Source of the DNA: Gammaproteobacteria bacterium
Lineage (GTDB): Bacteria > Pseudomonadota > Gammaproteobacteria > Thiohalomonadales > Thiohalomonadaceae
DNA length: 40,068 bases
Assembly: GCA_026196275.1 (NCBI GenBank)
Contig: JAPHTQ010000008.1
Span: forward strand, 1 to 40,068
Reading direction: 5' to 3'
Every line of letters begins with the position of its first letter. Position 1 is the first letter of the stretch. Shown here in pieces: positions 23,345-25,359 of the stretch. The notes under the pieces are model-generated. The model was not told where the DNA came from and did not search any database. It saw nothing but the letters and a program-made list of their open reading frames with translations. A program made the position numbers and the translations under genes.

Positions 23345-23700
23345 GGAGTCGGCCGGACAGTCGCTATATCTTCACGGTATGGAGGAAAGTCCGGGCTCCG
23401 CAGGGCAGGGTGCCAGGTAACGCCTGGGCGGTGAGAGCCGACGGAAAGTGCAGCAGAGAATATACCGCCGATGGTCTCTTCATTGAGACACAGGTAAGGG
23501 TGAAATGGTGCGGTAAGAGCGCACCGCGCCGGTGGTAACACGCGGCGGCATGGTAAACCCCACCCGGAGCAAGACCAAATAGGGGGGCATTGGTGTGGCC
23601 CGCATCGCCCCCGGGTAGGTCGCTTCAGGTGTCCGGTGACGGACATCGCAGATGAATGACTGTCCACGACAGAACCCGGCTTACAGGCCGGCTCCCACCT
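23345..23700 (+). ncRNA. rnpB: RNase P RNA (rnpB), bacterial type A
   Basis: Catalytic RNA of RNase P, which removes 5' leaders from tRNA precursors. The sequence follows the E. coli M1 plan. The 5' strand GGAGTCGGCC pairs with the 3' GGCCGGCTCC to form P1 (10 bp with one G-U pair). GACAGTCGC follows, then the highly conserved GAGGAAAGTCCGGGCTCC (from 23382), CAGGGTGCCAGGTAACGCCT, CAGGTAAGGGTGAAA, GGTGCGGTAAGAGCGCACCG, CCACCCGGAGCAAG, GATGAATGACTGTCCACGAC and AGAACCCGGCTTA near the 3' end. Length of about 356 nt is normal. The position next to rsmI and upstream of mraZ matches Pseudomonas. Confidence 0.97.
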
Positions 23701-23713
23701 CCAATTTCTCTTG

Positions 23714-23774
23714 CCTCTTGAGACTTCACATTAACTTGCCAACTCAAGGGGCTGATTAAAAAACACTCTTTTTT
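23714..23774 (+). terminator. Probable terminator after rnpB
   Basis: CCTCTTGAG (23714-23722) pairs with CTCAAGGGG (23743-23751), 9 bp with one wobble, around a 20-base loop. The sequence then runs into an A-run and a T6 run (23769-23774) that can itself form an A-T stem. The large loop and the 17-base distance to the T-run make this a moderate call. Confidence 0.45.
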
Positions 23775-23795
23775 GACCCTCCTCACAACCTCTTC

Positions 23796-23810
23796 TCCCA
23801 CCACGTCCCA
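23796..23810 (-). promoter_or_regulatory. Inverted pair of MraZ-type boxes upstream of mraZ
   Basis: On the minus strand, TGGGA (23810-23806), five bases, then TGGGA (23800-23796) reproduce the 10-bp-period TGGGN direct repeat bound by MraZ in E. coli. The boxes are preceded by GAAAG, as in the forward boxes. They lie about 100 bp upstream of the forward boxes and point the other way; no minus-strand gene is seen here that they would serve. Confidence 0.45.
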
Positions 23811-23868
23811 CTTTCCGTAAGTTGTTGTCATATAAGCAGGAAGTTTGTGATTTGAAGCCTGTTTTAAC

Positions 23869-23898
23869 TTGACAGTTCGGCTATATGCTACCTATAGT
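23869..23898 (+). promoter_or_regulatory. Sigma-70 promoter of the dcw cluster (Pmra)
   Basis: TTGACA (23869-23874, perfect -35) and TATAGT (23893-23898, five of six) are 18 bases apart. Transcription should start near 23905, giving a leader of about 58 bases before mraZ. This is the best promoter match in the window. It would drive mraZ, rsmH, ftsL, ftsI and the mur genes, which show almost no further gaps. Confidence 0.75.
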
Positions 23899-23907
23899 GT
23901 AGAAAGG

Positions 23908-23932
23908 TGGGGGAAAGTGGATCAAAGTGGAA
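23908..23932 (+). promoter_or_regulatory. MraZ operator boxes
   Basis: TGGGG (23908-23912), TGGAT (23918-23922) and TGGAA (23928-23932) occur at a strict 10-bp period with AAAG-containing spacers. MraZ of E. coli binds three TGGGN repeats with 5-base spacers in its own leader and represses the cluster. Here only the first box is a full TGGGN; the other two are TGGAN. The boxes start about three bases after the predicted transcription start, a good place for a repressor. Confidence 0.65.
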
Positions 23933-23962
23933 ATGGAGATTCAACAAGGGGGGAGTCAATAA

Positions 23963-24421
23963 GTGTTCCGGGGAGTCACAGAGTTAAGTCTCGATACCAA
24001 GGGTCGTATTGCGATGCCAACGCGCTATCGCGAGCGACTGCTGGATCGTTGCGCCGGGCACATGGTGATCACCATCGATATCGCCGAGAAGTGTCTGGCG
24101 ATCTACCCCTTGCCTGAATGGGAAGCGATCCAGCAAAAACTCGATGCCCTCTCCAGCTTCAATCCGAAGACTGCCATGGTGAAGCGCCTGCTGATGGGCA
24201 ATGCCACCGATGCAGAGATGGACGGCAACGGCCGCATCCTCATCCCCACCAAGCTGCGCAAGCACGCCAACCTGACCAAGAAGGTGGTTATGACCGGTCA
24301 GGGGAAGAAATTCGAACTGTGGGACGAGGAGACTTGGGATATTCGCAGTGAGGCTTGGCAGGCCGAGGCGTCTCTGGACGAGGGCGAACTGCCCACTGAA
24401 CTCGAGTCGCTCTCCCTTTAA
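23963..24421 (+). CDS. mraZ: Transcriptional regulator MraZ
   Basis: DNA-binding regulator of the division and cell-wall cluster, with two SpoVT-AbrB-like half-folds forming a ring. The 152 residues contain both DxxGR-type repeats: [19 protein letters not shown] (9-27) and [19 protein letters not shown] (near 85-103). The start is GTG, giving MFRGV as in the family, and AAGGGGGGAG lies about eight bases upstream. It is the first gene of the cluster, behind a good promoter and its own operator-like boxes. Two bases separate its stop from the first possible rsmH ATG (24424). Confidence 0.96.
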
Positions 24422-24435
24422 CCATGGAGGCGCCG

Positions 24436-25359
24436 ATGGAACACCGCCCGGTCCTGCTTGATGAGGTACTGGAGGCACTAGCTATACGCCCTGATGGGAT
24501 CTATCTGGATGGCACCTTTGGCCGGGGCGGACACAGCGCCGCCATCCTGCAGGAACTGAATGAAAACGGTCGCTTGCTGGCCGTGGATAAGGATCCACAG
24601 GCGATCGCGGTGGCAAAACAGCGATTTGGTGGAGATTCAAGATTCAGCATCGTGCGAGGGAGTTTCACCATGCTTGGGCAGGAGGTGGAAAGTCGTGGCT
24701 GGAAAGGCAGAGTCGACGGAATCCTGCTCGACCTCGGGGTCTCGTCGCCGCAACTTGATGATGCGCAGCGCGGCTTCAGCTTCCGTCATGATGGCCCGCT
24801 GGACATGCGCATGGATCCCGACAGCGGTATCAGCGCCGCCGAGTGGCTCAACAGTGCCAAAGAGGCGGAGATCGCCCAGGTGCTTAAGGAGTACGGCGAG
24901 GAGCGCTTTGCCAAGCGGATCGCCAGGGCCATTGTGCAGCAGCGCGAGCTGGCGCCGATCATCACCACGGCGCGCCTGGCGAAGATTGTCGCCGAGGCCA
25001 ATCCGAAGTGGGAACGGGACAAAAACCCGGCTACCCGCACTTTTCAGGCGATTCGCATCTTTATCAATAGTGAACTCGATGAGCTGGAGCTGGTCTTGAA
25101 TCAGTCGGTGGCGATGCTGGCGCCCGGGGGCCGGCTAGCCGTGATCAGTTTTCATTCACTGGAGGACCGGCGGGTCAAACGTTTCATCCGCGATGAGGCG
25201 CGTGGGGGTGATTTTCCGCCGGATCTGCCGCTGACCGACATCCAGCTCAACCGCCGACTGCGTGCTGTGGGCAAGGATATCAGGGCGAATCAGCAGGAAC
25301 TGGCTGTCAATCCGCGGGCGCGTAGCGCGGTGTTGCGGGTGGCGGAGCGGCTCGGCTAG
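24436..25359 (+). CDS. rsmH: 16S rRNA m4C1402 methyltransferase RsmH (MraW)
   Basis: Methylates N4 of C1402 in 16S rRNA, the same nucleotide whose ribose is methylated by RsmI upstream in this window. The 307 residues show [13 protein letters not shown], the SAM site [11 protein letters not shown] (24-34), [43 protein letters not shown] and [16 protein letters not shown] use the ATG at 24436 because GGAGG at 24426-24430 sits five bases before it; an in-frame ATG at 24424 is the alternative. Its TAG overlaps the GTG of ftsL by one base. Confidence 0.96.

Follow-up and report, generated by a model that had tools for sequence, protein, structure and literature searches.

The mraZ promoter of the window (the whole 40,068-nucleotide stretch of DNA that was analysed) is accompanied by two sets of MraZ-type boxes, the main array just past the promoter and an inverted pair about 100 bp upstream of it. 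The position, helical phasing and flanking bases of the inverted pair give good support to its assignment as a second, inverted MraZ operator cluster. The best explanation, to which we give a probability of about 0.5, is that the pair genuinely serves as an auxiliary MraZ operator, of opposite orientation to the main one and situated on the same face of the DNA, and that the DNA would form a small loop or wrap when both are bound jointly. The genes of the dcw operon specify the machinery of cell division and wall building, and the control of the operon's main promoter is incompletely understood. The features of the region are the following.

23345..23699, plus strand: RNase P RNA (class A) gene, rnpB, the upstream neighbour (Rfam RF00010, 334.7 bits)
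23796..23801, minus strand: upstream inverted MraZ-type box, distal, GTGGGA, at -22 from TAAGT
23806..23811, minus strand: upstream inverted MraZ-type box, proximal, GTGGGA, at -12 from TAAGT
23818..23836, plus strand: conserved TAAGT element TAAGTTGTTGTCATATAAG, likely site of a putative regulator
23869..23898, plus strand: mraZ promoter TTGACA-18-TATAGT, 11 of 12 consensus letters
23907..23931, plus strand: main MraZ operator GTGGG, GTGGA, GTGGA with 10-bp period (starts 23907, 23917, 23927)
23963..24421, plus strand: mraZ, whose product represses the dcw operon (NCBIfam TIGR00242, 155.5 bits, cut-off 98.35)
24424..25359, plus strand: rsmH (mraW), the next gene of the dcw operon (NCBIfam TIGR00006, 391.1 bits)

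The gene order at the locus is rsmI, rnpB, mraZ, rsmH, and the genome comprises 2.54 Mb in 88 contigs. The window protein passes the cut-off of TIGR00242, which is an equivalog model for MraZ, and the solved folds nearest to its structural model are those of MraZ, including PDB entries 9sz7 (Z 19.6) and 9r4j (Z 18.9). As far as the entry titles go, both are Mycoplasma genitalium MraZ-promoter complexes, i.e. the same protein family bound to promoter DNA; the title of 9sz7 names a '4 box promoter', and neither title mentions a two-site complex. An A+T-rich stretch, ACATTAACTT...TGATTAAAAA, lies between rnpB and the inverted boxes at 23725-23765 and looks, by eye, to be kept in the family (relatives L002, L004 and L010). 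In L002 it forms, also by eye, a near palindrome, TTAATGT-N3-ACATTAA.

The upstream pair had originally been predicted as TGGGA-N5-TGGGA on the minus strand at 23810-23796, and both the coordinates and the letters are right; read as GTGGG, the boxes occupy 23811-23807 and 23801-23797. The three boxes with 10-bp period that were said to follow the mraZ promoter (TGGGG, TGGAT and TGGAA) are present as claimed. The predicted distance of about 100 bp corresponds to 106 and 96 bp, measured from the G of each upstream box to the first G of the array. The upstream boxes are also nearer to TGGGN, as had been stated (2 of 2 boxes vs 1 of 3 in the downstream array). The loose similarity of the purine-rich flanks was not substantiated, as the local-alignment score was matched by 228 of 1000 shuffles.

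TGGGA-N5-TGGGA was found once in the window, with 0.12 matches expected, and 12 of 100 shuffled windows contained at least one; in the whole genome it has 4 matches compared with 1 for the reversed control pattern. The more general GTGGR-N5-GTGGR resulted in 5 matches in the window with 0.74 expected, a number reached in none of 100 shuffles, and 3 of the 5 fall in the 135-bp mraZ promoter stretch. Judged from the window alone, the pair is thus suggestive but weak evidence, and it is counted as more than chance because it is conserved in relatives. With two boxes at a 10-bp period on one strand, the pair has the build of an MraZ operator. The main array is positioned just past the -10, over the start site; the pair is not, being upstream of the -35 and inverted, and it is therefore termed here an auxiliary operator and not a canonical one.

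The upstream regions of mraZ were compared in a first set of 56 genomes (50 with mraZ) and a family set of 20 genomes (19 with mraZ), both including the window's genome, and in 370 genomes drawn across the class (322 with mraZ), part of which were retrieved; 80 named loci served as an additional source. Deduplication resulted in 124 promoters, to which 99 further regions were added, giving 223. A clear three-box array was found in 219 of these, the window included, which represent 147 sequence clusters; the 4 promoters lacking it were dropped. Too short an upstream stretch removed 3 of the 219 from the weight-matrix count of the TAAGT element (216 promoters, 144 clusters) and 4 from the weighting of phased boxes (215 gammaproteobacterial promoters, 143 clusters). 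Loci retrieved through the element pattern were excluded from every promoter count, and at least five of the matches listed for the class draw are absent from the promoter set, as are all matches beyond those listed. One relative, L011, has only 108 bp of upstream sequence. The array of L023, probably misplaced as judged by eye, was kept in the counts, as were 10 of the 99 further regions that have no ATG, GTG or TTG at the assumed start.

The anatomy, conservation and phasing of the upstream boxes can be read directly from these promoters. Among the 15 element-bearing promoters of the window's family, 11 have YCCAC (the reverse of GTGGR) at 22 bp ahead of TAAGT and 7 have it at 12 bp, the window belonging to both groups, and every other offset occurs in at most 4. 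The -22 box is lacking in 4 of the 15 (L003, L007, L014, L032), and L008 and L009 carry three inverted boxes, at -33, -22 and -12. The absence of the upstream boxes from every relative, which the original prediction had named as an outcome against it, was searched for; the -22 box was present in at least one member of 7 of the 9 family genera with the strict element. Of the 98 element-bearing promoters outside the family, 12 have YCCAC at -22 and 7 have it at -21, the mean being 0.275 per offset, and the forward GTGGR reached a maximum of 2 at any offset from the element.

The distances from the inverted boxes to the main array peak at 95-96 bp (14 matches), 105-106 bp (20) and 116-117 bp (9), with a mean of 0.69 per distance over the 219 promoters. 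The near-integral helical spacing between operators that characterizes looping repressors is therefore found both in the window (96 and 106 bp) and in its relatives. The cluster-weighted sum of phased inverted boxes (about 85, 95, 105 and 116 bp) was 25.6, compared with a mean of 2.4 and a maximum of 7.6 in 500 shuffles; this set of distances was picked after the data had been seen, but the best single distance, which is independent of that choice, scored 7.0 vs a shuffle maximum of 4.5. Phased boxes were detected in 13 families of the 370-genome draw (matched by hand). Some unphased distances also stand out, namely 186 bp (6 matches) and 163 bp (5) without weighting, and 99 bp (2.5) and 174 bp (2.0) with cluster weighting. 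A Rayleigh test of the phasing (R 0.49 at 10.5 bp) was dropped, since permuted pentamers overlapping CCCAC reached values up to 0.60.

These comparative data in the main refute the reading of the pair as a chance match or as an inverted duplication of the leader. The pair's occurrence in 12 of the shuffled windows would fit chance, whereas conservation and phasing would not; for the duplication, also raised in the original prediction, the leader similarity is not significant by the shuffle test above, and within the family conservation is concentrated in the box columns, most of the neighbouring ones being much less conserved. Such an origin is hardly credible.

The TAAGT element, located just downstream of the inverted boxes, has the form cTAAGTnnYTGTCnnnWAAG. 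Its strict core TAAGTnnYTG was found in 113 of 223 promoters, and with a weight matrix the element scored above the 99.5% null level in 131 of 216 promoters and 75 of 144 clusters. The profile was trained on strict members that are also included in this count; the ten best non-strict matches, at 66, 77 and 88 bp from the array, provide independent support for it. The distance from the element to the main array was 66-67, 76-81, 87-91 or 99-101 bp in 128 of the 131 promoters, and 93 bp (once) or 106 bp (twice) in the rest. The distance to the -35 was 50-52 bp in 45 of 61 promoters and 38-42 bp in 9 of 61, i.e. one helical turn apart. Similarly, of the 42 promoters in which both TATAGT and the element were found, the window included, 41 have the two separated by 62-65 or 74-76 bp. 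Two element to -35 spacings separated by one turn are the signature expected of a protein that would face RNA polymerase, and the element is likely to be the site of an activator or other putative regulator.

With the exact element pattern, 37 matches were obtained in the 370 genomes, 26 at mraZ, 9 elsewhere and 2 undecided; 30 of the 37 were checked by sequence and the others were placed by coordinates. The reversed control of the exact pattern also gave about 37 matches (hand count). As most exact matches are at mraZ, the element looks devoted to the dcw operon. A role as a widespread regulon site was rejected, as the loose pattern had 71 matches in the window's own genome vs 87 for the reversed control, in addition to the 26 of 37 exact matches at mraZ. 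A widespread phased element with seemingly one target per genome points to an identifiable regulator.

To our knowledge, none of the PhoB, CRP, Fnr, LexA, DnaA, PmrA, RcsB and PdhR motifs and neither the sigma-S nor the sigma-E promoter seemed to fit the element. Weak binding of PdhR upstream of E. coli mraZ has been reported (PMC3265435). A divergent minus-strand promoter with its -10, TRACTT, inside the element and the inverted boxes as its operator was also considered and rejected; the first letter of this -10 shows hardly any conservation (information 0.15 at position 6), and by eye there is no -35 at the right spacing. In L080, L087, L115 and similar MAGs, all of one clade, the element resembles TAAGTTATTGACGTTATTGAG, suggestive of a core repeated with a 9-bp step, and L045 and L080 have a second TAAGT copy about 52 bp upstream.

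The bases flanking the upstream boxes were compared with those of the array in 43 upstream boxes from 34 promoters and 21 clusters. The frequencies of A at -3, -2 and -1 were 0.56, 0.61 and 0.50 in the upstream boxes and 0.57, 0.70 and 0.62 in the array, compared with 0.20, 0.23 and 0.21 in the background. The phased inverted boxes as a set thus have the A-rich flanks of an MraZ operator, but the base before GTGG disagrees with the array, being G in 45% of upstream boxes, 8% of array boxes and 44% of the background. With a flank profile derived from clusters without upstream boxes, 25 phased-box clusters scored above 87 background clusters (Mann-Whitney p 1e-7); the contrast was weaker, p 0.0006, when the comparison was restricted to the 29 boxes at unphased distances within 60-180 bp. 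Both boxes of four g8 relatives (L019-L022) keep CCAC unchanged, and variation in them is confined to the two letters that are not fixed in MraZ boxes. The variants seen among the upstream boxes were GTGGGA, GTGGAT, GTGGGG, GTGGAA and GTGGAG. The positions fit a single protein for the two operators, one on each side of the promoter, and we infer that this shared protein is MraZ.

At 10.5 bp per turn, the 96 and 106 bp of the window correspond to 9.1 and 10.1 helical turns, so that both box sets can face one ring; we therefore favour a model in which the two sets are bound together and a small loop or wrap encloses the TAAGT site and the promoter. MraZ on the main array would cover the start site and repress its own operon, and one ring, or two touching rings, would also grip the upstream boxes. 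About 100 bp of DNA holding the TAAGT site of the putative regulator and the promoter could thereby be closed off. The upstream boxes would make autorepression more cooperative, and MraZ may shut out or restrain the putative regulator upstream. Binding of MraZ to the upstream boxes, the looping and the effect on the putative regulator are what we infer from sequence comparison. Should the boxes bind MraZ, a testable reason for the ring form would be given, one ring holding two stretches of DNA. A broader reading is held more tentatively: in many gammaproteobacteria the dcw operon may be governed by a three-part switch, in which a phased TAAGT..YTGTC...WAAG site for a dedicated putative regulator is framed by two inverted MraZ box sets and an MraZ ring clamps both ends of the promoter, the regulator being shut in or out.

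Looping by the ring-shaped MraZ, as originally proposed, is plausible and holds up as regards spacing, which is compatible in the window and in relatives (about 9, 10 and 11 turns). However, the boxes are locked more tightly to the TAAGT element than to the array, which leaves room for a loop-free role. As the distance between boxes and element is fixed while that between element and array shifts by whole turns, a local interaction fits as well as a loop. MraZ on the upstream boxes might then simply block or recruit the protein on the neighbouring element, the phasing with the array merely reflecting that of the regulator with RNA polymerase. This local role is the main rival, since the boxes mostly keep 22 or 21 bp from the element across three of its registers (78-79, 88-89 and 100 bp from the array) and the boxes are rare without the element; cluster-weighted, phased boxes were found in 19.7 of 74.5 clusters with the element and 3.2 of 68.4 without it, i.e. 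between five and six times more commonly. The two element to -35 distances would equally suit an activator touching the polymerase. On the other hand, boxes are also present at -32/-33 (L007, L008, L009, L176, L227, L239), and those of L068, L074, L082, L094 and L127 are phased although no element is above threshold, which indicates that contact with the element is not the sole constraint. A purely local role is possible but less likely than the favoured reading. Compensation between the box-element and element-array distances was considered as proof of a loop and set aside, the cases being too few: 5 long-register promoters have a -21 box (4 at 89 bp and 1 at 88 bp) and 16 a -22 box (8 at 88 bp and 8 at 89 bp).

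That the YCCAC at -22 is unrelated to MraZ and forms the outer portion of the putative regulator's own site is improbable. The fixed spacing to TAAGT, the association of the boxes with the element and the base before GTGG, unlike that of array boxes, would agree with it. However, the remaining flank letters agree with MraZ boxes, the degenerate letters show the same variation as those of MraZ boxes, further copies follow at 10-11 bp steps (-12 and -33), and about three quarters of the element-bearing clusters have no phased box and no such YCCAC. Still less probable is a roadblock, in which MraZ bound upstream would stop read-through from rnpB and so insulate the dcw operon. It is in keeping with an rnpB gene on the same strand whose end lies about 100 bp upstream, with the absence of a terminator from 23650-24000 in a simple scan, and with the finding of rnpB as the immediate upstream neighbour of mraZ in 7 of the 8 relatives' loci scanned; yet L018 has the box and no rnpB match in its locus, and a roadblock would require neither phasing nor inversion.

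GalR and LacI are looping repressors, in which two operators for one oligomeric repressor flank the promoter, and in gal the operators lie about 100 bp apart with the site of another regulator between them. The window is alike in the positions of the two box sets around the promoter and in the candidate regulator site between them; looping is here a proposal. MraZ belongs to the AbrB-like superfamily and, unlike GalR and LacI, reads tandem boxes and not palindromes.

Autorepression of the operon by MraZ has been reported for E. coli and Mycoplasma genitalium (PMC8475190, PMC7761207). In E. coli K-12, the usual model, mraZ is preceded by TGGGA/TGGGG/TGGGA, and the MraZ operator there consists of the same GTGGR boxes with 10-bp period after the -10 as in the window; neither the inverted pair nor the TAAGT element was found in the 631 bases read. 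In Burkholderia cenocepacia, four repeats reportedly overlap the start site, and a gel shift showed no binding of MraZ to the fragment from -386 to -136 (PMC7761207). The window differs in having a second, inverted set some 100 bp ahead of the main array. The auxiliary operator appears recurrent but optional, because many element-bearing promoters, E. coli K-12 and the B. cenocepacia fragment give no sign of the boxes or of binding. Tandem MraZ boxes past the mraZ promoter are known; for the inverted upstream set and the TAAGT element, no description was found in the literature searched, which included few subscription papers.

Two further box arrangements were observed. An extra forward GTGGR box lies 51-52 bp upstream of the first array box, near the -35 and separated from the array by about 5 helical turns, in L016, L050, L110, L118, L177, L188, L205, L244 and others; its cluster-weighted count was 8.8, compared with a mean of 0.31 and a maximum of 3.0 in 300 shuffles. 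The five promoters with no above-threshold TAAGT element named above (L068 to L127) belong to Endozoicomonas relatives and others, and their inverted boxes are located 95-96 and 116 bp from the array. One of them, L082, has a weak variant of the element, TAACTTATTAATTTTAAAAG, at 79 bp.
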